A DNA stretch of 33,114 nucleotides from Paludibacteraceae bacterium (GTDB lineage: Bacteria; Bacteroidota; Bacteroidia; Bacteroidales; Paludibacteraceae): positions 1 through 33,114 of the forward strand of contig JAFUUZ010000047.1 of NCBI GenBank assembly GCA_017471285.1. Reading direction: 5' to 3'. Below the pieces are notes generated by a model. The model was not told where the DNA came from, searched no databases, and saw nothing but the letters and a program-made list of their open reading frames with translations. The position numbers were made by a program, and so were the translations under genes. This document shows positions 541-33,114 of the stretch, piece by piece; position 1 is the first letter of the stretch; each line of letters opens with the position of its first letter.

Positions 541-2493
541 TTACAGTTTCGCACGGAGCAGAAAATGCACATCTGTGCGGGTCATGGACCGGTCGTGCGC
601 TGCCGCCCAAGCACGAGCATAGACGGTCTCGCTGACGCGCAGATACAGCGCTATCTGCGGGATGATCTGCCACCGCAAACAGGCATACGCCCTGCCGCCT
701 AATCCATATACTGCAGGGATAGAAAAAGCATACAGCACATCGTGCTCGTACATATAGATTCTGTTTGTCCACTCGCGGGCGTCGAATCCCTGCACCCTTA
801 ACTTTAAAGTTAAGGGAAGTTTCGTATTGAGAGCAGTGAGTTGAGAGAAATCGAGGGAGAAATCCTGCGCTATGCTGATTCCATAAGTCAGTTGAGAGTT
901 CAGAGAATTAGTGTTTAGTGAATTAGAGTTTAGGGAATTTGGTGCCAGGTTCGCGTCCGCGGTAGTACGCAAACTCCATCCGCAGGAAGACCAGTCGAAC
1001 TGTGCGCGGGCAGAGTAGAGTGCATCGCCTTTCTGCCGGGCGCGGAGCCGAAGACCGATCCGCCAATCTTGGCGGATATACCGGACTTCCGCCATGGCGT
1101 CGTAGCCAAGCGTTTTGCTTTCCGGGAGACCGTATTTGGGTCCGGAGAAATAGAACACATCTCCGTAACCGGTCAGCCTCCAGTTCCGCCATCGCGTAAT
1201 GTCAAAACCGACATAACCGCCGTTCTCGTCGCCTATGCGCGAGGTCTCCGAAAAAGCATACCCCTGCGCGTTGTCAAACCACGGCGAGTAGTACCTGTAG
1301 AGAGCTACCAGCGACACGCCCGAAGCAGGGTAGAAACGGCTTCCGACAATCGTACCGAAGCCCCAATGCGCTACGCGCAATGGATGATTGATAATTGATG
1401 ATTGATGATTTTGACTTGTGGCTACTTCGCCGAAGACATCAAACCAACCGTGGTTATACCGCGCGGAAACACCGATCACGGCTTGGTTCCTGCCCCTGAA
1501 ATAATGCTGATTGTAGGCGGAGTTGCGATACGGACGGATGCTGTCGCTCCATATGTTCTCTATTGCCGTCAGAGCTACCTGCAACCGGTCATGCCGAACC
1601 GTCAGATTGGCTCCTATCAAGTGATGCCAGGTGCTGTCATTCGCCCGTTTCATCGAGTACAGAACACTGGCATCCAGCCTTGTCTTCTTGCTCCATTCCC
1701 CCCGCAAAGTGGCTCCTGCTCCATGCAGCCCTTCGCCGTCCGCCGAACTGTAATACCGCAGTCCTTCACGACTCTGTCCGGCAGACTGGACATACACGGA
1801 TTTGCCGGCATGGAAAACCGGCGCCAGCACTAAACCCTGACCAAAAGAAGCCTGGAAATTACCGCCTACTATTGTATGCAAATGTCCTATGTCGCGCAGT
1901 TGCAGATAAGCTCCGTATTGCAAATCCCCTGCCATTCCTCCAGCCGGTCTGCGCAACTGCGCTCCGAAGGTTACACGACGTTGAAAATCAAAACGATAGC
2001 GCGCCTGCACAAACATAGGATCGCTGCCTTCATAAGATTCTATATTGCGTGCGTCCAGACGGGTCGTGATCTCATGCGTAGCATAAGCGAACACCTCACG
2101 CGCGTAATATTTCTGTTCGCCCGCGCTCGCGCCTATACGCACGAACGGAAGCAGGTCCCGTATCTCATAATCCGCCAGACTCTGAATCATTCGCAACTCA
2201 TACAGAGACTCAAACGGATGTTTGTCCGCATACATCAGAATCTCGTCTATCTGCTGCGCTGAAAGAAAATAGAGCTGCTGCAACTCTTCGTCCGAGGTGT
2301 TGTTCAGGTTGATCGGCTCTTCGTGAAGCGCATACAGATCGGTCTGCAGCTGTTCGTAGTCCACCTCGCCGATCTCCGTTGCCGCATTGTATATGTCCAG
2401 AATGATGTCGTCCAGACTCTGCCCGGAGGCAGGCAATGTACAAAGCGACAGAATGCAAAGTACTAAAGATATGGATCTAATAGCGTTTTTCAC
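541..2493 (-). CDS. Outer-membrane helix-hairpin-helix/beta-barrel protein, function unknown
   Basis: A 650-residue protein with a GTG start and a signal peptide (hydrophobic SLVLCILSLCTLPA, cleavage near ASGQ, residue 25). Residues about 60-121 form ComEA-like helix-hairpin-helix repeats (INLNNTSDEELQQL and ESLYELRMIQSL). The remaining roughly 500 residues alternate aromatic and polar strands, as in an outer-membrane barrel. This architecture is widespread in Bacteroidota under the name helix-hairpin-helix domain-containing protein; its job is not known and DNA uptake should not be assumed. The start is forced: the signal peptide needs it and no ATG lies upstream. The GTG is only four bases past the -7 box, so the mRNA is probably leaderless. 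Three low-complexity DNA phrases fall inside the gene (890-941, 1382-1413, 2433-2469), one of them coding for the signal peptide core. Confidence 0.8.
   Translation of the reverse strand: MKNAIRSISLVLCILSLCTLPASGQSLDDIILDIYNAATEIGEVDYEQLQTDLYALHEEPINLNNTSDEELQQLYFLSAQQIDEILMYADKHPFESLYELRMIQSLADYEIRDLLPFVRIGASAGEQKYYAREVFAYATHEITTRLDARNIESYEGSDPMFVQARYRFDFQRRVTFGAQLRRPAGGMAGDLQYGAYLQLRDIGHLHTIVGGNFQASFGQGLVLAPVFHAGKSVYVQSAGQSREGLRYYSSADGEGLHGAGATLRGEWSKKTRLDASVLYSMKRANDSTWHHLIGANLTVRHDRLQVALTAIENIWSDSIRPYRNSAYNQHYFRGRNQAVIGVSARYNHGWFDVFGEVATSQNHQSSIINHPLRVAHWGFGTIVGSRFYPASGVSLVALYRYYSPWFDNAQGYAFSETSRIGDENGGYVGFDITRWRNWRLTGYGDVFYFSGPKYGLPESKTLGYDAMAEVRYIRQDWRIGLRLRARQKGDALYSARAQFDWSSCGWSLRTTADANLAPNSLNSNSLNTNSLNSQLTYGISIAQDFSLDFSQLTALNTKLPLTLKLRVQGFDAREWTNRIYMYEHDVLYAFSIPAVYGLGGRAYACLRWQIIPQIALYLRVSETVYARAWAAAHDRSMTRTDVHFLLRAKL
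795..816. repeat. 22-nt perfect palindrome inside a coding region
   Basis: The left half CCCTTAACTTT is followed at once by its exact reverse complement AAAGTTAAGGG. It encodes barrel residues (PLTLKLR) of the helix-hairpin-helix protein. Confidence 0.85.
890..941. repeat. Phrase repeat within CDS (agttt/agaatta words)
   Basis: Imperfect reiteration of words such as GTTCAGAGAATTAG, GTTTAGTGAATTAG and GTTTAGGGAATT. In the host gene it encodes NSLN-SNSLN-TNSLNS, a low-complexity loop in an otherwise barrel-like protein. Confidence 0.75.
1382..1413. repeat. Heptamer phrase repeat within CDS (attgatg)
   Basis: Imperfect 7-bp period (ATTGATG ATTGATG ATT, preceded by ATTGATA). On the minus strand it encodes the NHQSSIINH stretch of the helix-hairpin-helix protein. 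Confidence 0.75.
2435..2450. repeat. Dispersed 16-mer AATGTACAAAGCGACA, copy 1
   Basis: Exact copy of the word at 2772-2787 and one mismatch from 8971-8986. Read antisense it supplies the LSLCTL core of a signal peptide. Confidence 0.85.
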
Positions 2494-2497
2494 GGTG

Positions 2498-2529
2498 CAA
2501 AATTAGTAAAAATCTTGCATATGTGCAAA
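2498..2529 (-). promoter_or_regulatory. Promoter for the helix-hairpin-helix protein (interleaved pair)
   Basis: Minus-strand TTTG (2529-2526), 20 bp, TAATTTTG (2505-2498). The GTG start at 2493 follows after only four bases, so the expected transcription start falls on or next to the start codon. It shares DNA with the rightward promoter 2514-2545. Confidence 0.75.
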
Positions 2530-2555: not shown

Positions 2556-3488
2556 ATGGATCGGAAGACGCTCTATCATATTGTCGAATGGTCGGTAGCC
2601 CTCGCCGCATGTGCGTTTCTGCTGTATAAGATTGCCACTTACGACAACTATGCCGCGCTCGGTGAGGCGCTGCGCAATATGTCATGGCAGCAATGGACGG
2701 CAATGGGCCTGTGCGTGGCTCTCATGCCGCTGAATATGGCGCTCGAAGCATGGCGGTGGCGCACCCTATGGAATGTACAAAGCGACAATGTACAAAGTAC
2801 AAAGGAGCTGTCTTTTGGGGAAGCGCAGAGGCAGGTGTATTACAGCAAGTTAGCCGGGCTGATCACTCCCTGGCGGCTGGGTGAATACCCGGCAAGAGGG
2901 ATGTTATTGGTAGAGAGTTTAAAGTTGAACGATGAAAGAAGTTCGAATGTCGAGAACGGGAAATTGATGACGCGTGTACTCTCGATGGGGGCTGTAGGAA
3001 GCGCTACCATGACTGCGGCAATCGTCCTGGCAGGTATCATTGGACTGGCTTTTTCGCCGGAGGTTCTCTCGCTTCTCGGAGGCAGTTATCTCTATGCTCT
3101 GGCAGTAGCAGTGGCGCTCCTGGCGATGGCTTTCGCGTTAATGCCCAGACTGCTCCGCCGTTTTGCCGAAGTGGACCAATATCTGCTTCTGCGCAGTCTG
3201 GGACAGAGTCTCGTACGGCTGCTCTGCTGGTGTGTCCAACTGGCGCTGGTGTTATGGGCGTTGGGAGCCTTCAGCCTTCAGCCTTCAGCCATCAGTTTGC
3301 TGTTTGTCTATTACCTCCTTGTGACAATCACGCCGAACGTGCCTGTCGCGGAGGCAGGAGTACGCGGCGCATGGGCGATTCTGCTCTTCGGTACCATGAA
3401 TGCAGCGCTGGCTGGGGTGCTGCTATGGCTGATAAATACCTTGCTACCGTGTCTAATTTGGCCTTTTTTGCGCAAAAAAACAAAATAA
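2556..3488 (+). CDS. Flippase-like (lysylphosphatidylglycerol synthase TM region family) membrane protein
   Basis: A 310-residue integral membrane protein with about eight hydrophobic segments (for example residues 12-26, 46-65, 148-171, 180-202, 225-265). It resembles the lysylphosphatidylglycerol synthase TM/YbhN-type flippase-like family: ALEAWRWRTLW early on, and NVPVAEAGVRGAWAILLFG near the C-terminus, a motif typical of Bacteroidota members. The substrate is unknown; lipid or lipid-linked sugar translocation is the family-level guess. Two DNA phrases interrupt it: 2772-2805 encodes the polar insert NVQSDNVQSTK after the second membrane segment, and 3267-3295 encodes FSLQPSAIS between later segments. 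The stop is followed at once by the malQ promoter. Confidence 0.75.
   Translation: MDRKTLYHIVEWSVALAACAFLLYKIATYDNYAALGEALRNMSWQQWTAMGLCVALMPLNMALEAWRWRTLWNVQSDNVQSTKELSFGEAQRQVYYSKLAGLITPWRLGEYPARGMLLVESLKLNDERSSNVENGKLMTRVLSMGAVGSATMTAAIVLAGIIGLAFSPEVLSLLGGSYLYALAVAVALLAMAFALMPRLLRRFAEVDQYLLLRSLGQSLVRLLCWCVQLALVLWALGAFSLQPSAISLLFVYYLLVTITPNVPVAEAGVRGAWAILLFGTMNAALAGVLLWLINTLLPCLIWPFLRKKTK
2772..2805. repeat. Dispersed phrase copy 2 (gtacaaag words)
   Basis: AATGTACAAAGCGACA (2772-2787) followed by AATGTACAAAGTACAAAGG, so the word is reiterated. It is the same 16-mer as at 2435-2450 but read here in the opposite coding sense. Confidence 0.85.
3267..3295. repeat. Heptamer tandem repeat (CCTTCAG x3) within CDS
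   Basis: Three direct copies of CCTTCAG and a degenerate fourth. The 7-bp period is not a codon multiple, so each copy is read in a different frame, giving FSLQPSAIS. Confidence 0.85.
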
Positions 3489-3560: not shown

Positions 3561-6173
3561 ATGAACATTAATTTTCAAATTCATTACCGTGCCGAGTACG
3601 GCCAGAGTCTGTGCGTGATCGAGACGCAGGAGTCAATCTTGGGATGGACGGAGAAGGAACCGCTGGTGCTGAATTGCCAGGGAATGGATTTCTGGCAGGC
3701 GAACGTGCCGATCAGCGATTTCGCCGGAAATATCCAGTATAAATACGCCATCCGTCTTCAGGACGGCGGCTATATCTACGAAGCCGGCGAACCCCGTACC
3801 CTGACGCTCAAGACGGCTGACAAACGTATCGTGGTACGCGACGCATGGCAGGCGAGCACCTATGAGGATAGTTTCTATACTACCGCCTTTCTGAAAGCGC
3901 TTTTTAGTAGAAAGTCGAAAGCAGAAAGTAGAAAGTCGAAAGCTCCGAAAGGTAACATCCGTTTCTCGATCGACCTGCCGCAGATACTGCCCTCGCAGGG
4001 AGTGGCTGTTATCGGTAACTGCGAGGCATTGGGCAACTGGAGCGCGGACGACAAACTCATCATGAGTGACGCCGAGTTCCCCCTCTGGAAAGCGGACATC
4101 GAGGTCAAAGGGCAGGATATCGTAGAATACAAATACGTCGTTTATGACCTCAAGACCGGTGCTGTGGTAGATACCGAGTGGGGCGAGAACCGCCAGATAT
4201 GGGGAATTGAGAAAGGTCAGGTGATCTATCAGAACGACCGCGGTTTCCGCCGCACGCAGCCCAGATGGAAAGGATCCGGCGTGGCTGTTCCGGTCTTCTC
4301 GCTCCGTAGCGAAGCGGGATTCGGTATCGGTGAATTCCAAGATCTCAAACTGCTGGCGGAATGGGCGGCTGCTACGGGTCAGCAGATGATTCAGACACTG
4401 CCGATCAACGATACGACACTCCGTCATAACAACCGCGACAGTTATCCTTACAACGCCGTTTCGGTCTTTGCGCTCCATCCGATATATATCAATATCGAGG
4501 CTATGGGACGTCTGACGCCGGCAATGAAGAAGAAATACGAGGCGCAGAAAGCGGAGTTTAACGCAAAATCCTTCTCGGATTACCAGAACGTGTATGACGC
4601 GAAGATGGTCTTCTTCAAAGCCCTCTATAAACAGGACAAGGACGCACTCTTCGGCAGCGCGGAATACAAAGCTTTCGAGAAGAAAAACCATGCATGGCTC
4701 GAGCAGTATGCCGAGTTTCTGAGCAAACGCGACAAACAGCCGAAAGATTTCTATAAGTTCCTCCAGTTCCATGCCGACAAACAGTTGGCGGACGCGGTGG
4801 CATATGCCCATTCGTTAGGCGTTGCCATGAAGGGAGATATACCAATCGGTATATCGCCGGACTCCGTAGATGCGGCTTATTATCCCGATCTGTTCAATCT
4901 GGATGCTTCTGCCGGAGCTCCGCCTGATGATTTCGATGCACGCGGCCAGAACTGGGGCTTCCCTACCTATAACTGGGATGAAATGGCGAAGGATAACTTC
5001 GGCTGGTGGCGCGCACGGTTCCAGAAGATGCAGGATTATTTCGATGCTTACCGCGTAGATCATATCCTCGGCTTCTTCCGTATCTGGCAGATGCGCAAAC
5101 AGGATGAGTGGGGACTTTGCGGTCATTTCGTACCGGCGCTGCCATATACCTACGACGATCTATGCGCACAGGGTGTTTGCCTCGACTGGGATAGAATGAC
5201 CAAACCGTATATCCGCTCCAATTTCTTGGGAGACGTGCTGGGATATGATACCGAATGGGCTAAACAACATGCCCTCCAGACACGCGATAACTATATCTAT
5301 TGGTTCCGTCCGGAGTTTGATACCCAGGCGAAGGTGCAGGCTTGGTACGACCGCCTGATGAGCGATGAGAAACAACTCAAAGCCAGCGGACTGAGTGCCG
5401 CTGCGGCGAAGAATATATGCAACGGACTGATTTATCTTCATTGCGAGGTGCTCTTCGTGGAAGACCAGCGCAGGCCGGGATGGCTGCATCCGCGTATCTC
5501 GATCTATCAGAGCCATTCGTTCAACGAACTCTATTCGGACCAGAAAGAGATACTGATGCGCATCTACAACGATTATTTCTATCGCCGTCACACCCAGTTC
5601 TGGCGTGACTCGGCGATGCGCAAACTGCCTACGCTCATAGGTGCTACCCATATGCTCTGCTGCGGCGAAGACTTGGGTATGGTGCCGGCTTGCGTGCCGG
5701 ACGTGATGCATGAGTTGCAGATCCTGTCGCTCGAGATACAGCGTATGCCGAAAGATCCGACGGTTAAGTTCGCGCATCCGGCTGACGCACCGTATCAGAG
5801 CGTTTGTACAACCGGTACACACGATATGAACCCGCTCCGCGCTTGGTGGGAGGAAGACCGCGCTGTGACACAGCGGTTCTATAACGAACAGATGGGATGG
5901 TGGGGCGAAGCTCCGAAAGAGATGACGCCGGAGATAGCTGAGTTCATCATCAACCAGCATATGTACAGCCCCGCTATGTGGACGATACTCCCTCTACAGG
6001 ACTGGCTCGCTATCGATGCTGACGTACGGATAAAAGACCAGTTCGCAGACCGTATCAACCTGCCGTCCGATCCGCGCCATTTCTGGAACTACAGGATGCA
6101 TCTTCCTCTGGAGAAACTGAAAGAGTGCGATGCGTTGAACGCAAAGATCAAGAAACTGACAAGCGTCAGGTAA
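3561..6173 (+). CDS. malQ: 4-alpha-glucanotransferase (amylomaltase) with two CBM20 domains
   Basis: An 870-residue GH77 enzyme that transfers alpha-1,4-glucan segments between maltodextrins in the cytoplasm (no signal peptide). Residues about 1-105 and 131-225 are two starch-binding CBM20 modules (GNCEALGNWSADDK in the second). The GH77 domain fills about 240-860. Visible catalytic motifs are DAYRVDHILGFFRIW (nucleophile Asp), CGEDLGMVP (acid/base Glu) and TGTHDMNPLRAWW (third acidic residue). The double CBM20 layout is normal for Bacteroidota MalQ and plant DPE2. The linker between the modules consists of a duplicated 7-residue unit SRKSKA(E/P), coded by a 21-bp direct repeat (3908-3943). 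It has its own promoter and ends 32 bases from the convergent ispH. Confidence 0.95.
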   Translation: MNINFQIHYRAEYGQSLCVIETQESILGWTEKEPLVLNCQGMDFWQANVPISDFAGNIQYKYAIRLQDGGYIYEAGEPRTLTLKTADKRIVVRDAWQASTYEDSFYTTAFLKALFSRKSKAESRKSKAPKGNIRFSIDLPQILPSQGVAVIGNCEALGNWSADDKLIMSDAEFPLWKADIEVKGQDIVEYKYVVYDLKTGAVVDTEWGENRQIWGIEKGQVIYQNDRGFRRTQPRWKGSGVAVPVFSLRSEAGFGIGEFQDLKLLAEWAAATGQQMIQTLPINDTTLRHNNRDSYPYNAVSVFALHPIYINIEAMGRLTPAMKKKYEAQKAEFNAKSFSDYQNVYDAKMVFFKALYKQDKDALFGSAEYKAFEKKNHAWLEQYAEFLSKRDKQPKDFYKFLQFHADKQLADAVAYAHSLGVAMKGDIPIGISPDSVDAAYYPDLFNLDASAGAPPDDFDARGQNWGFPTYNWDEMAKDNFGWWRARFQKMQDYFDAYRVDHILGFFRIWQMRKQDEWGLCGHFVPALPYTYDDLCAQGVCLDWDRMTKPYIRSNFLGDVLGYDTEWAKQHALQTRDNYIYWFRPEFDTQAKVQAWYDRLMSDEKQLKASGLSAAAAKNICNGLIYLHCEVLFVEDQRRPGWLHPRISIYQSHSFNELYSDQKEILMRIYNDYFYRRHTQFWRDSAMRKLPTLIGATHMLCCGEDLGMVPACVPDVMHELQILSLEIQRMPKDPTVKFAHPADAPYQSVCTTGTHDMNPLRAWWEEDRAVTQRFYNEQMGWWGEAPKEMTPEIAEFIINQHMYSPAMWTILPLQDWLAIDADVRIKDQFADRINLPSDPRHFWNYRMHLPLEKLKECDALNAKIKKLTSVR
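3908..3943. repeat. Phrase repeat in malQ linker (15-nt direct repeat, 21-bp period)
   Basis: TAGAAAGTCGAAAGC occurs at 3908-3922 and exactly again at 3929-3943, with CAGAAAG between. It encodes the linker between the CBM20 modules. Confidence 0.85.
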
Positions 6174-6208
6174 AGTACGAAGGAAATATGTACGATGTAC
6201 GAAGGTTA
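6174..6208. repeat. Phrase repeat between convergent malQ and ispH
   Basis: Reiterated GTACGAAGG/TGTACGA words fill the whole gap between the two stop codons. I see no hairpin-plus-T-run terminator here. Confidence 0.65.
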
Positions 6209-7135
6209 AGGGATGAGCGAGAGCTTGTCCCTTACTTTTTGCATGAGCCAGAGAGGAGTGCTGGTCGCTCCGCAGATACCTACTTTGAGGTCGGTTTTGC
6301 CTGCAAGACCGCTTTGTTCCAGTGCTTCTTCAAGCTCGTCTGGGGAGGAGATGAAAAGAGTGTTTGGGTTCGCCTCTACGCATTTTTGGAACAGCACTTT
6401 GGCGTTGGACGACTTGGCGCCGCCAACAAAAAGAACGATGTCGTTCTCGCGTGAGAAAGCTTGCAGCTCCGCTACGCGGTTGGCTACATTGCGGCAGATA
6501 GTGTCATGGTACTCGAAAGACCGCTCTGCTGTAGGACCGGCTTCGTCTGTAAGACCGCTTGCGCTGTAAGACCGCTTGCGCTGTAAGATTGTTTCGACGA
6601 GGTGGTTGAATCCCTCGACGGACTTGGTGGTCTGGGAGAATAGGTATATCGGCCGCGAGAAATCAAGGCGGTCGAGTTGCGTTTCGTTCTCAATGACGAC
6701 AGCGGTATTGTTGGTCTGTCCTTGCAGACCGATCACTTCGGCATGACCGGGTTTGCCGTAGATAACTATTTGAGGCGGCTGCGGCTCGTCGTTCTTATGC
6801 GTCTCGTAGCAGGCGCGGATGCGGTCCTGCAGTTTCTTTACCACAGGACAGGTGGCGTCGATGATCTCTATCCCCCGTTGCTGCGCAATCCAGTATGTGC
6901 TAGGCGGTTCGCCGTGCGCACGGAGAAGCACACGCGAATGGGAGGGTAATGTGCGGAGGTCGTCATAGTCGATCGTCTGAAGACCCTTGTTCTCCAGACG
7001 CGCTACTTCCTGGCCGTTATGCACGATGTCGCCCAGACAATAAAGCGGACCGTTCGCCAGTTCGCTTTCTGCCGCTTCGATAGCGCGCGTCACTCCGAAA
7101 CAGAAACCGCTATGTTGATCAATGGAAATCTGCAT
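6206..7135 (-). CDS. ispH: 4-hydroxy-3-methylbut-2-enyl diphosphate reductase
   Basis: A 309-residue [4Fe-4S] enzyme making IPP and DMAPP in the last step of the MEP isoprenoid pathway. Cluster cysteines are in SGFCFGVTRA (Cys12), DATCPVVKKL and GICGATSTPLW; HAEVIG and EYHDTICRNVANR are conserved family segments. I start at the ATG at 7135 (MQISIDQHSGFCFG), because the longer reading begins with TTG inside a CTAGT phrase repeat. An insert of about 20 residues just before FEYHDTIC (RKRSYSASGLTDEAG region) is coded by a 17-bp phrase repeat and is not expected in the family. It follows cmk by 32 bases and is probably co-transcribed with it. Confidence 0.95.
   Translation of the reverse strand: MQISIDQHSGFCFGVTRAIEAAESELANGPLYCLGDIVHNGQEVARLENKGLQTIDYDDLRTLPSHSRVLLRAHGEPPSTYWIAQQRGIEIIDATCPVVKKLQDRIRACYETHKNDEPQPPQIVIYGKPGHAEVIGLQGQTNNTAVVIENETQLDRLDFSRPIYLFSQTTKSVEGFNHLVETILQRKRSYSASGLTDEAGPTAERSFEYHDTICRNVANRVAELQAFSRENDIVLFVGGAKSSNAKVLFQKCVEANPNTLFISSPDELEEALEQSGLAGKTDLKVGICGATSTPLWLMQKVRDKLSLIP
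6517..6590. repeat. 17-bp tandem phrase inside ispH
   Basis: CTGTAAGACCGCTTGCG at 6547-6563 is repeated exactly at 6564-6580, followed by a partial third copy. Degenerate AAGACCG/AGGACCG words extend to the left to about 6517. The period is not a multiple of three, so consecutive copies encode LQRKRS and YSASGL in different frames. Confidence 0.9.
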
Positions 7136-7139
7136 TATA

Positions 7140-7190
7140 GTCGAACTAATCAAACTAGTTTATCTAGTCAATCCAGTTTGTCTAGTGTTT
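7140..7190. repeat. CTAGT phrase repeat at the cmk-ispH junction
   Basis: Several spaced CTAGT/CTAGA words (read AACTAGT, ACTAGA, ACTAGATA on the coding strand) cover the end of cmk, the gap and the region before the ispH start. The same word is amplified in the polA linker (31242-31297). Confidence 0.7.
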
Positions 7191-7928: not shown

Positions 7929-9029
7929 TTACTTCATCATAGAATGGATATCCAGTGTCAGTCCTACCTGGTAGGAGAAATTGGATTTGGTTAACTGGCT
8001 GATTGCGAAACCCAGCCGGACTTGTTTGATCTTTACTCCGGCGCCGAGCGCAAAACCTGCCAGCGATTTCTGGTCCGTCAACTGCAATTCCGCGCGCCGG
8101 CGGTGGTTGTAACTGAGGGCGATATAGAATTTCTCGCTCTTGGGAACAACCTCGATACACCATATCGTATGGCGGAACATCATGTCGTACCATTTGACGT
8201 CATGGGGTATGATGTCGCCGGTCGTCGGACTCTTGTCCAGACTTGTCCATTCGTAGTTGAGATGCCATGTCTGCATGTTATGTATCTGCAGGTGGAACCG
8301 CAAAGGCGCGTGCTTGACGCGGTAGGTCAGACCCAACTGCAGGTTCAGAGGCAGCATCTCATGTCCGGTGCCGTCTTCGGAGGAGTAGAAACTCTTGATC
8401 TGCCATCCGATGTTCTGCAACACCAGGCCCATCTGGAAGGTTGAATCTCTTGTCTGGAAATGTGCTCCTACGTCTGCGCCGATGGCGAACGAATTATAGC
8501 TCTCGTAAATCGAATAAACGGGTTTGAGCGTCACGCCGATCTTCCAGCATGGATGCAACTGGCGCGCGTACATCACGTCTATCAGTATGTCCCGCGCACC
8601 GAAACTGCCGCCGCTTAAGTTACCGTTCTCGTCCGCATATTTCATCCGTCCGTAGTCCAGATAATGGATACCTACGGCGAAATAGTTCGGTTTCTCCGGC
8701 GCACCGTCACCGCTGCTCCGCAATCCCTTTGCTTCGCCGAAATTATGTCCGTATAGTGCGGAACCGAACATCGTTCCGGGCAGATAATAGGAGTAGTTGA
8801 GCTGCAGCGTCATGTGGCTGTTCGCGTGCAGCAGGGCAGGGTTGCACATACCCATGGATATATCGCCGTCGCTGACGCTCACGTTGCTTCCGCCCAAAGC
8901 ATTCAGACGCGACGAAGTAGGCAAGCTCATAAAAGAGAACACCGATCTGCCTGCGCTCGACACCTGTCCAAATGTACAAAGAGACAAGGAACAAAGGAGA
9001 AGCGTTACTATTTTTCTTCTTATAGCCAC
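7929..9029 (-). CDS. porQ: Type IX secretion system protein PorQ
   Basis: A 366-residue outer-membrane protein matching PorQ, a part of the attachment complex that anchors type IX cargo at the cell surface. It has a signal peptide (hydrophobic TLLLCSLSLCTFG, cleavage near GQVSSA). Then comes the characteristic start FSFMSLPTSSRLNALGGSNVSVSDGD and barrel strands ending in SNFSYQVGLTLDIHSM. The start is GTG at 9029; ATGs nearby are out of frame and stop at once. The leader from the promoter box is 24 bases. As I recall, porQ is also followed by cmk and ispH in Porphyromonas gingivalis. The signal peptide is coded by a phrase one mismatch from those at 2435 and 2772. Confidence 0.9.
   Translation of the reverse strand: MAIRRKIVTLLLCSLSLCTFGQVSSAGRSVFSFMSLPTSSRLNALGGSNVSVSDGDISMGMCNPALLHANSHMTLQLNYSYYLPGTMFGSALYGHNFGEAKGLRSSGDGAPEKPNYFAVGIHYLDYGRMKYADENGNLSGGSFGARDILIDVMYARQLHPCWKIGVTLKPVYSIYESYNSFAIGADVGAHFQTRDSTFQMGLVLQNIGWQIKSFYSSEDGTGHEMLPLNLQLGLTYRVKHAPLRFHLQIHNMQTWHLNYEWTSLDKSPTTGDIIPHDVKWYDMMFRHTIWCIEVVPKSEKFYIALSYNHRRRAELQLTDQKSLAGFALGAGVKIKQVRLGFAISQLTKSNFSYQVGLTLDIHSMMK
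8971..8986. repeat. Dispersed 16-mer, copy 3 (AATGTACAAAGAGACA)
   Basis: One mismatch from the copies at 2435-2450 and 2772-2787, continued by ACAAAGGAG. On the coding strand it encodes SLSLCTF of the PorQ signal peptide. Confidence 0.8.
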
Positions 9030-9182: not shown

Positions 9183-9875
9183 ATGTGGTTAAAAGATTCA
9201 TCTGTCGGCCGTAAATTCGTAATGGCCCTCAGTGGAGCGGCGCTTGTGCTGTTCCTGCTTTTTCATGGTTGTATGAACCTGGCGCTGGTGTTCAGCGAGG
9301 AGGCGTACAACGCGATCTGCCGTTTCCTCGGCGCTAACTGGTACGCCGTCATCGGATCGCTGGGTATTGCTTTCCTGGTGCTGGTACATTTCTGCTACGG
9401 TCTGTATCTGACCATCCAGAACCGTGCTGCGCGTGGCAATGACCGTTATGAGGTTCGCGCGAAGAAAGAAGGTGTGACCTGGGAGTCGGAGAACATGCTC
9501 GTTCTCGGATTTATCATCCTCGGTTTCCTCTGCTTGCACCTCTACAACTTCTGGTTCAAGATGCAGTTTGCCGAGCTGACCGGCATCCATACGGGTGCGT
9601 TTGACCCGCAGAACGGTGCCGCTTATGTCAAAGAGTTGTTCACCACTCCTGTCTGGGGTCAAGTGTATTGTGTGCTCTATCTGCTCTGGTTCGTTGTGCT
9701 CTGGCTACACCTCAATCACGGTGTGGGTTCGGCTATGACCTCTATGGGACTCAACAACCTCAAATGGCAGAAACGCGTAGAAGTGATCAGTACGGTAGTG
9801 GCTACAATCGTTGTACTGCCGTTCACTATTGTTGTGCTGTATTATCTGGGCATGGGAATAGGCATGCTTTGCTAA
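9183..9875 (+). CDS. frdC: Fumarate reductase/succinate dehydrogenase cytochrome b subunit
   Basis: A 230-residue membrane anchor with five hydrophobic segments (about residues 12-36, 54-78, 105-125, 160-180, 203-228). It is the single-subunit dihaem type found in Bacteroidota and Wolinella. Histidines in FLLFHGCMN, VLVHFCYG, LGFLCLHLYNFW and VLWLHLNHG are the candidate haem ligands. It passes electrons between menaquinone and the FrdA/FrdB catalytic subunits. First gene of the operon frdC-frdA-frdB, with its own promoter. Family annotators often name it sdhC; in an anaerobe the fumarate-reducing direction is more likely. Confidence 0.93.
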   Translation: MWLKDSSVGRKFVMALSGAALVLFLLFHGCMNLALVFSEEAYNAICRFLGANWYAVIGSLGIAFLVLVHFCYGLYLTIQNRAARGNDRYEVRAKKEGVTWESENMLVLGFIILGFLCLHLYNFWFKMQFAELTGIHTGAFDPQNGAAYVKELFTTPVWGQVYCVLYLLWFVVLWLHLNHGVGSAMTSMGLNNLKWQKRVEVISTVVATIVVLPFTIVVLYYLGMGIGMLC

Positions 9876-9908
9876 AGTGAAAGGTGAAAACTGAAAACTG
9901 AAAGGAAA
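9875..9908. repeat. Heptamer phrase repeat between frdC and frdA
   Basis: Starting at the frdC stop: GTGAAAG, GTGAAAA, CTGAAAA, CTGAAAG. It fills the 38-base gap and ends in the purine-rich GGAAAG just before the frdA start. Confidence 0.8.
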
Positions 9909-9913
9909 GAATT

Positions 9914-12774: not shown

Positions 12775-12778
12775 GTAG

Positions 12779-12794
12779 CAGCCATGTATGGCTG
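12779..12794 (+). other. Small perfect hairpin after frdB
   Basis: CAGCCA-TGTA-TGGCTG gives a 6-bp perfect stem with a 4-base loop just after the stop codon and upstream of the terminator. It may protect the mRNA 3' end (inference). Confidence 0.5.
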
Positions 12795-12809
12795 GTCTGC
12801 ACAAAAAAT

Positions 12810-12835
12810 GGCGACTCGTATGAGCCGCCGTTTTT
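12810..12835. terminator. Bidirectional intrinsic terminator
   Basis: GGCGACTC-GTAT-GAGCCGCC forms an 8-bp stem with one A/C mismatch, followed by GTTTTTATT on the plus strand. It is preceded by ACAAAAAAT, which is a T-run on the minus strand. It serves the convergent frdB and pectate lyase genes. Confidence 0.85.
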
Positions 12836-12862
12836 ATTGTTGCATGTTTTGAGGCAAATGAG

Positions 12863-14545
12863 TTATTCTATTCTTCTTCCCATTGCGTCATAGACGTTCT
12901 CGCCTCGGAGGATGAGCAGTTGTCCGTTGCGGAATAGTTTGTACGCTTTGTTTTCTTCGTTCGCGGAGGGCTCTATATTTTCTGTAGTGCCGTCATTCGC
13001 TTTGATGTTAAAACATACCTGCGAAATCCTTGTGCCGGTGCCGGCGGAGCGCTGGATCGTGAATGACTTGGCGTTAGCCGGAGCTGTCAGTAAGACGGTC
13101 TCTTTTGTTGCGCCGGAAATGTTATAAGTCGTGTTGTTGGCATTCCCCCAATGATAGGCGATTGTGTTTTTGTCCTCCGCCCAGTTGGGGATAGTGACAT
13201 CAAAGGAAACAGAAGTGATTGTGGCGTTGTATGCCGAGAAATCGAAGGTGATGTAGTCGCTGTTGGCTCCCATATGTAGAAATCCCTGATCCCATTTGGA
13301 ACCTTTGCCGGCGTTGAGTGATGCCACTATCGATAGTTGGCTGAATTCCGCGGGAATACCTCCGTTGGCGACTGATGGTTCTTCACCTAAACTCAGATCG
13401 ACGCAGCAGTCTCCGCTGACCACAGCAGTTCCGCCTTGTTCTCCTCCTTGCTCTCCGCCTTGTTCTCCTCCTTGTTCTCCGCCCGGATTCTCGCTCCCGC
13501 TATCGCATGAAGATGAGACTTCTGCGGTATTGGAGACGGTGAGTGTAGCTCCTGCACCGCAACTGCTGTTCGTCACGTAGTTCTTTGCCTCTGCGGCGCT
13601 CAAAGCGTCATATGCGTAACTCGGAGCCGACACGCTACCGCTGTTACTCGGCAGGTTTCCTGTGCAGTTGACGAACTTGCAGGCATTACTGCTTCCTCCA
13701 TAAACACTCCAGATCTTAGAGGCACTATTCGCTTTACCTGCAAAAGTACAGCCCTCGAAATAGCACTTGGCATTCTCCGGCCCCACGTAGTAATCCGCTA
13801 CGGACGAGTTCCAGTAGCAGTTCAGATAGTGAATCAAGGCATTGCGGCAGCGGGTCATGCGTTGTTTGCAGCCCTCGTCCCACCAGCAGAAGCCGTATGT
13901 GATATTGTATGTTCCGTCAGCGGGTTTGTCGGAAGAGCCGGAGCCGACCAGATTGGAGAAACGGTGGTCGTCTGATCCGCCAGAACCGCCTGCTTTTGGT
14001 GCTTTGAGGTAGCGGAAACGGCACCAGGTGACGCTGATGTTGTCGCTCTTGCCTTTGATATCGAAGTTACCGTCACAGCCGTCCTGGAAATCGCAATGGT
14101 CCACCCACACGTTCTTTGCACCGTCGAGGCACAAGTTGTCCCATCCGTCGCAGTCATACGCTCCGGGACCTTCGAACGTCAGGTTGCGAAGGAGTAGGTT
14201 ACTGCCCTTCAGATACAGGATGCCTGAGTTGTCTTTGTTCTGCTGGTTGGAAATCAGTTTCTTTCCCGGCAGAGCCATGATGGTCAGGTTGTCCTTGTCG
14301 GTGCTGATATGGTTCGTGACAGTAATATTTTGCGTGATGATAATAACACGGTTGCTTTTGCTCAAAGCACTGCTCAGTTCGCTTGCGCTGGTCACGAGAA
14401 TAGGCGTAGCGTTTCCGCCGCCCGTCACAGAACCTGCATAGCCCCATGAGGACTCCGCACAGTAGTTAACGGCATGAAGAGAAGTTATTGACGGTCCGAG
14501 GATCAGGAACAGACTAATACTAATAAGAGAGATGATTTTCTTCAT
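12863..14545 (-). CDS. Secreted pectate lyase (PL1 family) with C-terminal secretion tail
   Basis: A 560-residue secreted protein. The signal peptide is residues 1-25 (IISLISISLFLILG, cleavage near LHA). A parallel beta-helix pectate lyase domain spans about 28-340, with the PL1 hallmark WVDHCDFQDGCDGNFDIKG. A Gly/Glu/Gln linker (GGEQ repeated four times, residues about 356-372) leads to a beta-rich module of about 380-525 (DYITFDFSAYN, AKSFTIQRSAGTGTRISQVCF), perhaps carbohydrate-binding. The tail KLFRNGQLLILRGENVYDAM ends the protein. It resembles the short C-terminal segment (LRNGQL-type) on exported Bacteroidales proteins, so type IX export is likely but not proven. Predicted role: cleavage of polygalacturonate outside the cell. 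It has its own promoter with a 21-base leader. Confidence 0.88.
   Translation of the reverse strand: MKKIISLISISLFLILGPSITSLHAVNYCAESSWGYAGSVTGGGNATPILVTSASELSSALSKSNRVIIITQNITVTNHISTDKDNLTIMALPGKKLISNQQNKDNSGILYLKGSNLLLRNLTFEGPGAYDCDGWDNLCLDGAKNVWVDHCDFQDGCDGNFDIKGKSDNISVTWCRFRYLKAPKAGGSGGSDDHRFSNLVGSGSSDKPADGTYNITYGFCWWDEGCKQRMTRCRNALIHYLNCYWNSSVADYYVGPENAKCYFEGCTFAGKANSASKIWSVYGGSSNACKFVNCTGNLPSNSGSVSAPSYAYDALSAAEAKNYVTNSSCGAGATLTVSNTAEVSSSCDSGSENPGGEQGGEQGGEQGGEQGGTAVVSGDCCVDLSLGEEPSVANGGIPAEFSQLSIVASLNAGKGSKWDQGFLHMGANSDYITFDFSAYNATITSVSFDVTIPNWAEDKNTIAYHWGNANNTTYNISGATKETVLLTAPANAKSFTIQRSAGTGTRISQVCFNIKANDGTTENIEPSANEENKAYKLFRNGQLLILRGENVYDAMGRRIE
13431..13493. repeat. 12-bp tandem repeat encoding the GGEQ linker
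   Basis: Four to five imperfect copies of CCTTGTTCTCCT/G on the plus strand (GGxGGxGAxCAA on the coding strand) encode GGEQ repeats in the pectate lyase linker. Confidence 0.9.
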
Positions 14546-14566
14546 ATTTGTAAGTTAATTTGCTCG

Positions 14567-16749: not shown

Positions 16750-16799
16750 ACTATGTTTAGATTGACCAATAATCTACCGGTTACCTGCCAATAATTTAC

Positions 16800-16872
16800 C
16801 AGTTACTTATCCCTATTATATCGCACTTATCTCCCACTTATCTCCCACTTATCACGCACTTATCACGCACTA
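16800..16872. repeat. CACTTATC phrase repeat
   Basis: CGCACTTATCTCC, CACTTATCTCC, CACTTATCAC, GCACTTATCAC, GCACTAA follow one another with a period of about 11 bp, preceded by degenerate ACTTATCCC words. It occupies the gap between the SpmA/SpmB-type gene and ybeY. Confidence 0.85.
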
Positions 16873-19044: not shown

Positions 19045-19073
19045 GTGCTAAATGAGTGCTAAATGAGTGCTAA
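19042..19073. repeat. 11-bp tandem repeat at a stop codon
   Basis: TGAGTGCTAAA is present three times (the last one as TGAGTGCTAAG). The first TGA is the methyltransferase stop, and every unit contains TGA and TAA. Confidence 0.9.
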
Positions 19074-20041: not shown

Positions 20042-20075
20042 ATTAAAAATTGAAAATTGAAATTGAATATTGAAA
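20042..20075. repeat. TTGAAA phrase repeat carrying the sprF start codon
   Basis: AATTGAAAATTGAAATTGAATATTGAAA is written here in pieces: ATTGAAA, ATTGAA, ATTGAAT, ATTGAAA. The last TTGAAA is read as the first two codons of sprF. Confidence 0.8.
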
Positions 20076-21035: not shown

Positions 21036-21037
21036 GT

Positions 21038-22387: not shown

Positions 22388-22423
22388 TTATATAAGGTAT
22401 ATAAAAATTAAAATATTATAATT

Positions 22424-23377: not shown

Positions 23378-23428
23378 ATTAATTTAATTAAGTAGTAATT
23401 GAAATACAACCGATAAAACACTTCAGCA

Positions 23429-25006: not shown

Positions 25007-25018
25007 TAGCTTAACAAT

Positions 25019-29675: not shown

Positions 29676-30338
29676 ATGAAAGTGCGTATAGAGGAGTCGT
29701 GGCAACGGGTGTTGCAACCGGAGTTTGACAAGCCTTATTTCGAACTCCTGACTTCTTACGTGCGCCAGCAATACCAGACCCGTCGGTGTTTTCCACCGGC
29801 AGGTCTTATTTTTAATGCATTCGATTCCTGTCCTTTTGACCGGGTACGGGTGGTGATCATCGGTCAGGACCCTTACCACGAGCCGGGACAGGCTATGGGG
29901 CTGAGTTTCTCGGTGCCGGAGGGCGTACAGATCCCTCCTTCACTGATGAATATCTACAAGGAGATCCACCGTGATCTGGGCACACCTATTCCGGCGAGCG
30001 GCGATCTGCACCGCTGGGCGGAGCAGGGGGTGTTGCTGCTTAACGCCACCCTGACTGTCGAGGCCCACAAAGCCGGAAGCCATCAGGGCAAAGGGTGGGA
30101 GGAACTGACGGATGCAGCTATTGACGCGCTGAATAAAGGCCGAGAACATCTGGTGTTCATGCTCTGGGGATCCTATGCGCAGCGCAAAGGCCAGTTTATC
30201 GACCGCCGCAAACATCTGGTGCTCCAGACATCCCACCCGTCTCCGCTGTCGGTATATAGAGGTTTTGACGGCTGCGGACATTTCTCCGCGGCTAATAACT
30301 ATCTGACCAAACATGGCGAAAAACCCATTGAATGGTAA
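29676..30338 (+). CDS. ung: Uracil-DNA glycosylase (family 1)
   Basis: A 220-residue base-excision repair enzyme. The water-activating motif GQDPYHEPGQAMGLSFSV, the LLLNATLTVEAHKAGSH segment and the DNA-intercalating motif HPSPLSVYRGF are intact. Starts 15 bases after queA and ends 36 bases before the preferred polA start, with a phrase repeat between them. Placement next to polA joins two steps of base-excision repair (inference). Confidence 0.96.
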   Translation: MKVRIEESWQRVLQPEFDKPYFELLTSYVRQQYQTRRCFPPAGLIFNAFDSCPFDRVRVVIIGQDPYHEPGQAMGLSFSVPEGVQIPPSLMNIYKEIHRDLGTPIPASGDLHRWAEQGVLLLNATLTVEAHKAGSHQGKGWEELTDAAIDALNKGREHLVFMLWGSYAQRKGQFIDRRKHLVLQTSHPSPLSVYRGFDGCGHFSAANNYLTKHGEKPIEW

Positions 30339-30378
30339 AATGGCTAAATAAATGACTAAATGGTAAATGAGCAAATGA
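30334..30378. repeat. TGGTAAATGA phrase repeat at the polA start
   Basis: ATGGTAAA, ATGGCTAAATA, AATGACTAA, ATGGTAAATGAG, CAAATGAG follow one another, giving several ATG and TAA/TGA codons. 30350-30370 is the exact reverse complement of 32782-32802 downstream of polA. Confidence 0.85.
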
Positions 30379-32780
30379 GAAAATTACTATTGGTTGATGC
30401 ATATGCCATGATTTTCCGGGCATATTATGCGTTTATCCGCGCCCCGCGTATGAATAGCAAAGGGGAGAACACCTCTGCTATCTTCGGTTTTGCCGTTACC
30501 TTGGAAGACCTGTTGAAGAAGATCAATCCCACCCATGTGGGAGTGGCTTTTGACCCTGCCGGTGGCACTTTCCGTCACGAAGCATACGAGCAATACAAGG
30601 CGCAGCGTCCGGAGACTCCGGAGGATATTAAGAAAGCGGTGCCGGTAATCAAGCAGCTTCTGGAGGCGATGAACATACCGGTTCTTGAGGTACCCGGTTT
30701 TGAGGCGGATGACGTGATCGGCACGCTGTCCAAGAGAGGCGAGGAGGCAGGTTTTGAGGTCTATATGGCTACTCCGGACAAGGACTACGGCCAGCTGGTG
30801 ACCGACCATGTGTTCATGTACCGTCCGCGGCATACCGGCGGTTTTGAGTTGATGGGCCCCAAAGAGGTATGCGACAAATACGGACTGCAGCACCAAGACC
30901 AAGTGATCGATCTGCTGGGGCTGATGGGAGATGCCAGCGACAATATACCCGGGTGCAAGGGAGTAGGAGAGAAGACGGCTGTGGCTTTGCTGCAGCAGTT
31001 CGGGTCTATTGACAACATGCTGGCTCATACAGACCAGATCAAAGGCGCCCTCCGCACCAAAGTGGAGAGCCAGACGGAAGAGATCAAGTTCTCCCGTTTT
31101 CTGGCTACTATCCGCACGGATGTACCCATTGCGCTGGACGAAGCGCTTCTGGCGAAGAAAGAGCCGGATACAGAAGCACTGGCGTCGCTCTATCGCGAAC
31201 TGGAGTTCAACTCCCTCTTACGCAAACTCGGCACCTCCGGCTCTACTAGTCCTACTAGTCCTTCTAGTTCTACTAGTTCTACTAGTTCGACTAGTTCCCC
31301 TATTTCCCCCGCTAAGCCTGCCAAGGCTCCCAAACCCGCCGACCCGAACCAGTTGGATCTCTTTGCAGCGGAGGCTTCCCCCGTCACCGGTAACCCGTCA
31401 CCCGTAACCGGTCACCCGTCCCCCGTCACCGGTAACCCGTCACCCGTAACCGATACAATAGAAGCCCGTCTGTGTCAGTATCTGCTCAACCCCGAGGTGG
31501 CATTCAACCCGTATAAAGAGCCGGACTGGGAGGCGTTGAAGGCGGATGCGGATCTATGGAATCTATATAATGAAGTGGAGCTTCCGCTGGTGCCTGTACT
31601 GCGTGAGATGGAGGCCGCCGGAGTGCGAATTGACGTCGCGCAACTGAAGCAGGCGGAGACAACCTTGACAGAAGAACTGAACGGTCTGGAGCAACGGATT
31701 TACGACCTGGCAGGCGAGACATTCAATATCAACAGTCCCAAGCAAGTGGGAGAGTTGCTGTTCGACAAACTCAAACTGGACTCCAAGGCGAAGAAATCCA
31801 AGACAGGACAGTATTCTACTTCGGAAGAAGTGCTGGCAGGACTGAAGGAAAAACATGAGATCGTGTCCCTTATTCTGGAACAGCGCGAGCTGAAGAAACT
31901 GATCTCTACCTATATCGCTGCGCTTCCGGGGTATATTGACCCGAAGGACGGCAAGATCCACACGACCTATAACCAGACAGTGACGGCAACGGGTCGTTTG
32001 AGCAGCAGCAATCCGAACCTGCAGAACCTTCCTATCCGGTCGGAGCGCGGACGGTTTATCCGCGAAGCGGTCATTCCCGACGAGGGCTGTCTGTTCCTGA
32101 GCGCCGACTATAGCCAGATAGAGCTGCGTCTCATGGCGCATTTCAGCCAGGACGAGCATATGTTAGCGGCATTCCGGACGGGGCAGGACATCCATGCCGC
32201 TACGGCTGCGAAGATTTACGGTCTGCCCATCGAGCAGGTCTCCAAGGACCAGCGCCGGAAAGCCAAGACCGCCAATTTCGGTATTATTTACGGTATCTCG
32301 GCTTTTGGCCTGGCGCAGCAGCTGGATTGCAGCCGGTCGGAGGCGAAGCAGTTGATAGACGACTATTTCGCCGCTTTCCCGCGCGTGATCAGTTATATAG
32401 AGAGCCAGAAAGAACTGGCGCGTTCACGCGGCTATGCCGAGACGCTCTTCGGACGCAAACGCTACCTGCCGGACATACATTCCCATAACGCAACCGTCCG
32501 TTCTTTCGCGGAACGGAATGCGGTCAATGCGCCTATACAGGGTACTGCTGCCGACATCATCAAGATGGCAATGGTCTCTATCCACCGGCGGCTGAAAGAA
32601 GAGGGTCTGCAGGCGCAGATGATCATGCAGGTGCATGACGAACTGAATTTCAACGTACCGGAGCCAGAAGTGGACCGCGTGCGCGAGATAGTGGTCTCCG
32701 AGATGCAGAACGCAGTCCATCTGTCCATCCCGTTAATAGCCGAATGCGGCGTAGGAAAGAACTGGCTCGAAGCACACTAA
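30375..32780 (+). CDS. polA: DNA polymerase I lacking most of the 3'-5' exonuclease domain
   Basis: An 801-residue Pol I; family members with all three domains have about 930-950. Residues about 1-285 are the 5' nuclease (VAFDPAGGTFRHE, FEADDVIGTL, TPDKDYGQLV, LMGDASDNIPGCKGVGEKTA). Residues about 289-360 are low complexity: TSP/TSS repeats, Pro/Ala/Lys, the clamp-binding-like QLDLF (326-330) and SPVTGNP repeats. Only about 36 residues then precede LYNEVELPLVPVLREME, the start of the polymerase domain (about 396-801). The DxE and YxxxD-type exonuclease motifs are absent. Polymerase motifs are intact: A DYSQIELRLMAHFS, B RRKAKTANFGIIYGIS, C QVHDELNF. I prefer the ATG at 30375 (MRKLLLVDAYAMIF) over 30360, which lies in a phrase repeat. 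Confidence 0.93.
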   Translation: MRKLLLVDAYAMIFRAYYAFIRAPRMNSKGENTSAIFGFAVTLEDLLKKINPTHVGVAFDPAGGTFRHEAYEQYKAQRPETPEDIKKAVPVIKQLLEAMNIPVLEVPGFEADDVIGTLSKRGEEAGFEVYMATPDKDYGQLVTDHVFMYRPRHTGGFELMGPKEVCDKYGLQHQDQVIDLLGLMGDASDNIPGCKGVGEKTAVALLQQFGSIDNMLAHTDQIKGALRTKVESQTEEIKFSRFLATIRTDVPIALDEALLAKKEPDTEALASLYRELEFNSLLRKLGTSGSTSPTSPSSSTSSTSSTSSPISPAKPAKAPKPADPNQLDLFAAEASPVTGNPSPVTGHPSPVTGNPSPVTDTIEARLCQYLLNPEVAFNPYKEPDWEALKADADLWNLYNEVELPLVPVLREMEAAGVRIDVAQLKQAETTLTEELNGLEQRIYDLAGETFNINSPKQVGELLFDKLKLDSKAKKSKTGQYSTSEEVLAGLKEKHEIVSLILEQRELKKLISTYIAALPGYIDPKDGKIHTTYNQTVTATGRLSSSNPNLQNLPIRSERGRFIREAVIPDEGCLFLSADYSQIELRLMAHFSQDEHMLAAFRTGQDIHAATAAKIYGLPIEQVSKDQRRKAKTANFGIIYGISAFGLAQQLDCSRSEAKQLIDDYFAAFPRVISYIESQKELARSRGYAETLFGRKRYLPDIHSHNATVRSFAERNAVNAPIQGTAADIIKMAMVSIHRRLKEEGLQAQMIMQVHDELNFNVPEPEVDRVREIVVSEMQNAVHLSIPLIAECGVGKNWLEAH
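31242..31297. repeat. 9-bp CTAGT tandem repeat in polA linker
   Basis: Six units of ACTAGTCCT/TCTAGTTCT/ACTAGTTCT/ACTAGTTCG type encode TSP and TSS triplets. Confidence 0.92.
31378..31452. repeat. 21/42-bp tandem repeat in polA linker
   Basis: CCCGTCACCGGTAACCCGTC-type units with a 21-bp period, almost identical at 42 bp (31378-31410 and 31420-31452), encode SPVTGNP, SPVTGHP, SPVTGNP, SPVTDT. Confidence 0.92.
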
Positions 32781-32866
32781 GTCATTTACCATTTAGTCAT
32801 TTACCATTTAGTCATTTACCTTTTAGTCATTTACCATTTAGTCATTTACAATTTGGTCATTTACCA
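32781..32866. repeat. 15-bp tandem repeat after polA
   Basis: GTCATTTACCATTTA is repeated five to six times with single substitutions (CTTTTA, CAATTTG). It begins directly after the polA TAA and is the reverse complement of the phrase in front of polA. Confidence 0.93.
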
Positions 32867-33114
32867 AAACTTCTTTAAACTTTAAACTCCAAAACTTCTT
32901 TCAACTTTAAACTTTAAAACTTCTTTCAACTTTCAACTATCAACTTTCAACTATCAACTTTAAACTCCCATGCTTCTTTCAACTTTCCATACGGCTTCAG
33001 CCGATCGTTCGAGGCTTAGCCGAGATAAGAACTTTCAACTTTCAACTATCAACTATCAACTTTAAACTCCCATGCTTCTTTCAACTTTCCATACGGCTTT
33101 AGCCGATCGTTCGA
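32867..33114. repeat. TCAACTT heptamer tract with a duplicated 62-bp unit; no gene
   Basis: Tandem TCAACTT/TCAACTA/TTAAACT words alternate with CTTCTTTC. A 62-bp unit (32951-33012) recurs at 33053-33114 with one change (C/T at 32998/33100), a 102-bp period. Each unit ends in CGGCT-TC-AGCCG (or TT), which can form a small hairpin, then CGATCG. The window stops inside the array, so its full length is unknown. No coding potential is seen. Confidence 0.9.

Follow-up and report, generated by a model that had tools for sequence, protein, structure and literature searches.

Tandem-word arrays in gaps and in-frame gene slots of a rumen Paludibacteraceae-like genus: a possible interplay of slippage and short-patch copying of heptamers

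Cyanobacterial short tandemly repeated repetitive sequences (STRRs) consist of short tandem units and form a class comparable to heptanucleotide repeats. Repetitive extragenic palindromes and bacterial interspersed mosaic elements (REP/BIME), together with REP-associated tyrosine transposases (RAYT), place a short hairpin at many positions per genome, and Rickettsia palindromic elements are in-frame repeats inside ordinary genes. Heptanucleotide long simple sequence repeats (LSSRs) are a known bacterial class (Mrazek 2007, as quoted in PMC4679880 and PMC4692102). Direct repeats of TAACTGA occur, by the excerpted account of PMC4679880, in Beggiatoaceae, Cyanobacteria and some Bacteroidetes, with two sets in Paludibacter propionicigenes. 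In Borg repeats, the nearest case that we found for fast repeats in proteins, all units within open reading frames (ORFs) are divisible by three and the words are virtually all unique per genome, according to the portions of PMC9879509 consulted. Here we describe imperfect tandem-word tracts in a 33,114-nt stretch of Paludibacteraceae DNA (hereafter the window, G000:C22:1-33114). Its draft genome, G000, comprises 1.55 Mb in 87 contigs and is 55% complete. By record name, its closest matches are uncultured members of the Bacteroidales and Paludibacteraceae, many of rumen origin; the nearest of all is G041 (UBA3653), whose PolA is 98% identical to that of the window.

In conserved genes, orthologous slots are occupied in frame by words that often differ between related species, which suggests a DNA-writing process that would merely be tolerated by selection. 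We regard it as roughly an even chance that the arrays of this rumen Paludibacteraceae-like genus arise through local slippage combined with a copying of short patches, by which words of a heptamer lexicon enter slots that tolerate them. In IspH the slot lies in the interdomain linker, between residues 8-189 and 216-312, both of which align to solved IspH. A tandem signal was detected there in 24 of 36 genus loci (p < 0.02, 300 shuffles) and, outside the genus, in 2 of 27 (2 of the 29 loci were unreadable); these outside loci, here and in the gap counts below, include one from the same family but another genus (L234). By reading, at least 15 different words were present among the 24 positives, and the slot measured exactly 45 nt in 10 of these and in 3 of the 12 negatives. 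In an IspH tree built with the slot omitted, L228 (AAATCTC, 45 nt) is a close neighbour of L135/L136 (ACGTAATT, 75 nt). For ispH and the LPG-synthase-like gene, only best-matching loci were used, drawn from 30 of the 57 genomes with a match, and some of them belong to close sisters.

The LPG-synthase-like gene has two such slots. The one at 3266 gave a tandem signal in 17 of the 32 loci that could be read (4 of 36 could not), with ACAATTT, AAATTAC, CAGCCTT, TCAACTT, TTTCACC and others as words, and its length was 36-39 nt in 10 of the 17 positives and 13 of the 15 negatives. At 2772, 5 of 34 loci were positive and 23 of the 34 had a slot shorter than 20 nt. In the 4-alpha-glucanotransferase gene (3906), three relatives carry non-repeat sequence and a fourth carries CAGCCGT words. 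The polA linker holds AAATGACCAAATGGT in tandem in six loci (NDQMVNDQMVN-like) and singly in two, the same word being present in gaps too, while CCCGTCACCGGTAAC-type repeats occupy this linker in several further loci. Palindromes were seen in a few in-frame slots (L131, L132 and L207). Given that a heptamer array can stand in an ORF at unchanged length, with no in-frame path through single 7-nt steps, we infer one-step replacement, and this is our main argument. Separately, LPG-synthase-like or ispH frames with one internal stop were observed in loci of G020, G021, G057 and G072 and at places in G010.

The polA loci of 80 relatives (L009-L088), in which ORFs and gaps were assigned by a simple ORF rule, yielded 243 tracts. 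Period 7 was the commonest (75 tracts) and period 11 the second (42), periods 10 (2) and 12 (1) being rare. By density the gaps stood out (82.9 vs 7.1 per 100 kb); by number, 90 tracts lay in gaps, 103 well inside ORFs and 50 at edges. The repeat unit of the 103 in-ORF tracts was divisible by three in 53 and not so in 50. The sequence-only reading had argued that the force acts on DNA while selection merely keeps the frame; an action on DNA is indeed favoured, because about half of the in-ORF units are not divisible by three and the slots of related species hold unrelated words. Several period-11 words have a GC-rich core (CGACGGTC, TCGCGACC), and a five-copy 22-mer array, CGCAGAAATCCTGCATGACTCC, was found at L009:14198-14306, just downstream in the sister genome.

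Heptamers are shared between sites to an extent that longer words are not. A total of 71 heptamer words were found in 170 tracts from 143 loci, with 314 identical pairs; flank-derived words gave 14 and letter-shuffled ones 34. Because relatives inherit arrays, the test was redone for pairs without shared 1-kb surroundings. Among these 11,634 non-orthologous pairs, 238 were identical, against 10.8 (maximum 20) for flank-seeded and 27.1 (maximum 50) for letter-shuffled words. This pairwise test was used instead of clustering to drop orthologous sites, which placed 165 of the 170 tracts in one cluster and gave 4 pairs vs 0.7/2.1. Identical non-orthologous pairs numbered 0 of 399 for 8-mers and 6 of 1,537 for 11-mers, the latter fitting one word found four times. 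With heptamers shared and 8- and 11-mers nearly all private, slippage and some copying or bias therefore both seem needed; the causes that had been proposed from the sequence were slippage, templated copying or a selfish short element. Inside single genomes, a 10-mer was common to the two sites in 17 of 262 pairs (permutation mean 5.9, with 0 of 500 as high; shuffled tracts 8). Aligning the heptamers on a TCA core (TGA when read from the opposite strand) gave 4.45 bits, compared with 3.78-4.08 in 12 letter shuffles. Among published heptamers, TAACTGA (5.9) and GTGATTA (6.1) fit this score, below 5.7 for 95% of random heptamers, and GGGAATC and GATAGAA do not, which is a lead, not a law. TAACTGA is absent among the 71 listed heptamers, and no separate search for it was made.

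In the window, the tracts were detected with Tandem Repeats Finder (TRF; periods 5-30, loci merged, score cut-offs 30, 40 and 50), compared with 40 dinucleotide and 40 triplet shuffles, and with a second tandem detector, compared with 20 shuffles. TRF gave 27 merged loci at score 30 (means of 4.90 in dinucleotide and 5.53 in triplet shuffles), 19 at score 40 (0.62 and 0.82) and 16 at score 50 (0.28 and 0.17); the second detector gave 17 tracts against a mean of 0.05. The strong tracts thus exceed chance by far, and about one-fifth of the score-30 loci could be due to chance. From the sequence alone, about 20 imperfect tandem sites had been listed between 890 and 33114; at score 30 or above, TRF overlapped 18 of the 20, and the two misses, 2433 and 8971, both carry an imperfect AATGTACAAAG phrase. 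The tracts are real, and shuffled sequence is not equally rich in them, but their even spread was overstated: the second detector found no tract at 20.1-31.2 kb, the rest of the window being dense. The ORFs at 20070-25966, which cover part of that stretch, resemble PorP/GldK-N and presumably belong to a type IX secretion system. Periods 7 and 17, not codon multiples, are present within window genes, as had been proposed. The recurrence of words far apart holds for AATGTACAAAG, at 2435, 2772, 2787 and 8971, and for TGGTAAATGA, near 30355 and, as its reverse complement, in the 32780 array. It does not hold for CTAGT, which sits in 9-/18-mer arrays (7146-7186 and 31242-31309) and is by itself too short for meaning. 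The codon-periodic character ascribed to the 13431 tract was borne out. The tracts are as follows.

895..939, within ORF 541-2493 (- strand): 15-mer phrase AGAGTTTAGGGAATT, TRF score 62; of equal length in G041, with 1 mismatch.
1379..1410, within ORF 541-2493 (- strand): heptamer phrase ATTGATG/ATTGATA, found by two detectors; unchanged in G041.
2433..2480, start region of ORF 541-2493 (- strand): AATGTACAAAGCGACA phrase, replaced in G041, with 0/60 mismatches in either flank.
2770..2806, in-frame slot of the LPG-synthase-TM-like gene 2556-3488 (+ strand): AATGTACAAAG phrase, identical in G041; relatives have other words or 6 nt.
3266..3295, second in-frame slot of the same gene (+ strand): heptamer phrase CAGCCTT; relatives have other words there.
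3906..3943, in-frame slot of the 4-alpha-glucanotransferase gene 3561-6173 (+ strand): AGTCGAAAGC phrase, found by two detectors.
6174..6205, between two convergent genes: 11-mer/7-mer GTACGAAG phrase, 22 nt longer in G041.
6517..6588, interdomain linker of ispH 6206-7153 (- strand): 17-mer AAGACCGCTTGCGCTGT, from tandem detection and slot comparison.
7146..7186, spanning the cmk/ispH junction (- strand genes): CTAGTTTAT phrase.
8971..9010, start region of ORF 7929-9029 (- strand): AATGTACAAAGAGACA phrase.
9874..9913, between ORFs 9183-9875 and 9914-12016 (+ strand): heptamer phrase GGTGAAA/ACTGAAA, found by two detectors.
13430..13483, linker of the pectate-lyase-like gene (- strand): codon-periodic 12/24-mer array.
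16766..16871, upstream of ybeY (- strand): 22-mer and 11-mer phrases, found by two detectors; 44 nt longer in G041.
19041..19073, end of ORF 18232-19044 (+ strand): three copies of the 11-mer ATGAGTGCTAA; one unit fewer in G041.
20042..20075, before and into ORF 20070-21035 (+ strand): heptamer phrase ATTGAAA.
30334..30389, filling the ung-polA junction: AAATGGT/AAATGAC phrase, about 317 nt longer in G041, mostly N.
31242..31309, first part of the polA linker: 9-mer TCTACTAGT array.
31380..31452, second part of the polA linker: 7/14/21-mer CCCGTCACCGGTAAC array.
32780..32864, immediately past the polA stop codon: 15-mer AGTCATTTACCATTT array; other words there in G041.
32864..33114, to the contig end: TCAACTT/TCAACTA/TTTAAACT arrays.
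32988..33029 (+ strand), within a heptamer array: 42-bp hairpin core (CATACGG...GATAAG); a second copy, at 33090-33114, is truncated where the contig stops.

Across 32.6 kb of alignment, the window shares 96.4% identity with G041, and 19 of the listed sites fall within the alignment. At 10 of them the length is unchanged; to that extent the closest sister has the phrases of the window at matching positions, which is not the case for the gene slots followed across the genus. Among the nine changed sites, whole-unit changes were found at 6174 (+22), 16773 (+44), 19041 (-11) and 31241 (+9), and replacement at 2433, 3266 and 32780; the words are reshuffled at 31378, and at 30337 the extra G041 sequence is mostly a run of N. 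Gap columns accounted for 494 of 1,405 at the sites and 118 of 29,755 elsewhere (12770-15000 left out). The 60-nt flanks of 2433, 3266, 6174, 28524 and 30337 showed 0-2 differences per side; these changes therefore look like short patches, and import of divergent alleles is unlikely at these five places. Flanks were less clean, in mismatches per side, at 19041 (3, 0), 16773 (0, 6), 31242 (0, 5) and 31378 (3, 4). Changes at 12027 (16, 10) and 12774, near sdhB, belong to a block of raised divergence and are excluded from the argument. Divergence from G041 is about 7-16% in 12500-15500, compared with about 1-5% across most of the window; the pectate-lyase-like gene lies in this segment, together with a portion of a VWA/YfbK-like gene.

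The sequence-only impression of a genome-wide family is supported, tracts being found throughout the G000 samples and in relatives. Their density per 100 kb was 51 in the window, 53 in G041 contig 1, 15.6 in the polA loci of the 80 relatives and 4.6 in samples from 16 other families (9 in 195 kb). Other G000 stretches gave 30 (26 tracts in 87.5 kb); all three source contigs were reached by way of the TCAACTW pattern, which biases the word counts from them, and the heptamer-sharing statistics above exclude them. A tandem signal was detected in 30 of 66 gaps of 20-300 nt in the window and G041, 96 of 554 in the 80 loci and 7 of 104 outside the genus, the gaps again being delimited with a simple ORF rule. 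An exact three-word TCAACTW array was present in 13 of 25 genus genomes and in 0 of 16 from other families. TCAACTW arrays were also seen in 18 stretches of IMG/VR viral contigs (L263-L280).

At gene junctions, the ung-polA gap is 5 nt or less in 26 of 71 rows (one genome occurring twice, as L011 and L133), and in many of the other rows the gap is occupied by phrases that, as judged by eye, are built from letters of the junction itself; these phrases often vary from species to species. Downstream of polA, many species go directly into the next gene, and others carry arrays running from the polA stop codon towards the next start, with ACCGTAC, CCAATAT, AAATCAT and TGATAGT among the words. A role of the heptamers as three-frame stops was rejected by eye, as post-stop arrays are stop-free in L047, L023, L042 and L077.

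G000 contains a 29-nt piece of the 42-bp hairpin core at 19 places, 16 of them exact and 3 carrying a single mismatch; G056 has it at 12, as its own variant, and G001 at 1, whereas the remaining 58 genomes searched gave no match. The view that the words do not look like REP or miniature inverted-repeat transposable elements (MITEs) fits most tracts, but not the last array of the window, which contains this core. Those core copies that were read are embedded in, or adjoin, arrays with words varying by site and genome, and the words on the two sides of each core mostly match. At two orthologous gaps, the place of the G000 hairpin core is taken in G041 by a roughly 150-bp cassette, which is mostly the same at both. 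The core folds at -13.9 kcal/mol, only modestly beyond shuffles, 11 of 200 being equally stable. Rfam gave no match for window positions 32700-33114, and IMG/VR contained no exact match to the core. A search for RAYT-type Y1 transposases in 37 genus genomes returned one strong match (G049) and 11 weak partial matches above the cut-off, among them one in G000 (23.9 bits, cut-off 23; this genome being 55% complete), and none in G056 with its 12 cores; the genus matches are weak except one, and RAYT mobilisation is conceivable but unsupported. In the ispH slot of L218, an AAATCAC heptamer array carries a hairpin-like insert with ATCGTTCGA and GAGAAAAGAA that resembles the window's core, and similar inserts ending in TAAGAA are present in L160, in L027 and in G041 at window position 28524.

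If slippage and short-patch copying act together, tolerant stretches (gaps, gene ends, interdomain linkers, the membrane-protein slot and start regions) would be repeatedly overwritten by tandem words. Local replication slippage would create the private 8-, 11- and 17-mer words, often from stop or start codon letters, and would also underlie the observed copy-number shifts by whole units. The mostly TCA-cored heptamers, seen to be shared across genes and species and to replace other sequence, would arrive as whole short patches, with other arrays as their probable source and gene conversion or template switching as the route, and selection would retain just those patches that lack stops, keep the frame and have a tolerable length. 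Slippage explains the unit-length changes and the private words but not, on its own, the shared heptamers, the hairpin core within arrays and the constant-length replacement. Several points weigh against this combination: no donor-recipient pair has been demonstrated, 10 of the 19 sites are unchanged in the sister genome, and the 24 positive IspH loci are not independent, being best matches that include close sisters. Word sharing within one genome is modest, since that of 8 letters is lower than in shuffled tracts (21 vs 38) and that of 9 letters is 19 vs 18. The shared vocabulary could reflect a sequence preference of slippage, and the constant slot length could come from protein-level selection. 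Plain slippage with such a bias is a tentative alternative, in which arrays are seeded locally, often at stop or start codons, grow and shrink by unit steps, share the best-slipping heptamers and survive only at tolerant sites. The unit-length changes in the sister comparison, junction arrays composed, by eye, of junction letters, the private 8- and 11-mers and the known heptamer model (as quoted in PMC4679880 and PMC4692102) agree with it. It is at odds with a non-orthologous heptamer sharing far above both the flank-seeded and the letter-shuffled controls, with in-ORF heptamer arrays at lengths that also occur repeat-free, where single 7-nt steps break the frame, and with the core within arrays.

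A further tentative reading is a short-patch writing process, either dedicated or a by-product of a replication or repair enzyme, that would draw heptamers and hairpin cassettes from a lexicon common to the genus and place them in whichever chromosomal slot tolerates them; linkers of essential proteins would then be wholly rewritten in one step and differ between close relatives, with the flanks on both sides left intact.

A selfish short element is unlikely. Its mobile unit would be the hairpin core with heptamer arms, the heptamers remaining after loss, and the near-identical, genome-specific core variants at many places in G000 and G056, with mostly matching words on both sides, are in keeping with this, but the core occurs in only 3 of 61 genomes while arrays are far wider, and only one strong Y1 transposase match was found in the 37 genus genomes, with none in G056. 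We give very little weight to selection on peptide or regulation (translation or mRNA end signals) as what picks the words: many arrays do adjoin start or stop codons, and translational regulation was put forward for TAACTGA repeats in the excerpted text of PMC4679880, but words are exchanged freely per slot with unrelated peptides, units in ORFs can be non-triplet and the same words occur on both strands, in genes and gaps. An artefact of draft-genome assembly is scarcely credible, although the window ends inside a repeat and one G041 array contains a run of N, because flanks are collinear on both sides, slot frames are kept and many separately named assemblies behave alike. Loss of mismatch repair was rejected, given that mutS1 was above the cut-off in 35 of 37 genus genomes (it was missed in G053 and in G000, a genome only 55% complete), while MutL passed in 33 of 37, all but G012, G016, G020 and G053.

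Bacterial tandem repeats are commonly ascribed to slippage and treated as phase variation. The IspH, PolA and membrane-protein slots, with many unrelated and often non-triplet words across one genus, offer a natural series for the birth and replacement of repeats and also for the changes that linkers undergo in essential proteins. Why bacteria favour a unit of seven nucleotides, an old question, becomes testable, and caution is advisable in that such linkers may arise by DNA events and not by residue-by-residue evolution. In the literature searched, which covered few subscription papers, there was no report of genus-wide gene slots rewritten with different non-triplet words, nor of a hairpin core within such arrays.

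Among known systems, REP/BIME elements resemble the present arrays in that a short hairpin recurs at many places in G000, but here the core lies within heptamer arrays and only one strong RAYT-type match was found in 37 genus genomes. Like Rickettsia palindromic elements, the arrays form in-frame repeats in ordinary genes; unlike them, most words are non-palindromic. The TAACTGA repeats, as excerpted from PMC4679880, likewise form heptamer arrays beside start and stop codons, with some within ORFs, but that family has one dominant word, related heptamers being rare in the main genome, whereas tens of words are in use here. The Borg repeats, in the portions of PMC9879509 cited above, are similarly fast-evolving, located in gaps and protein linkers and independent in relatives; the arrays described here differ in the frequent non-triplet units in ORFs and in heptamers common to non-orthologous sites. 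The likeness to heptanucleotide LSSRs and STRRs, so far as the quoted accounts go, extends to tandem units of 5-11 nt, among which 7 nt is the most frequent, a location mostly in gaps and variability between relatives, as well as to copy number shifting by whole units in our sister comparison. What sets the present arrays apart from that class is the occupation of conserved-gene slots by words that change from species to species, a shared TCA-cored vocabulary and a hairpin core within the arrays.

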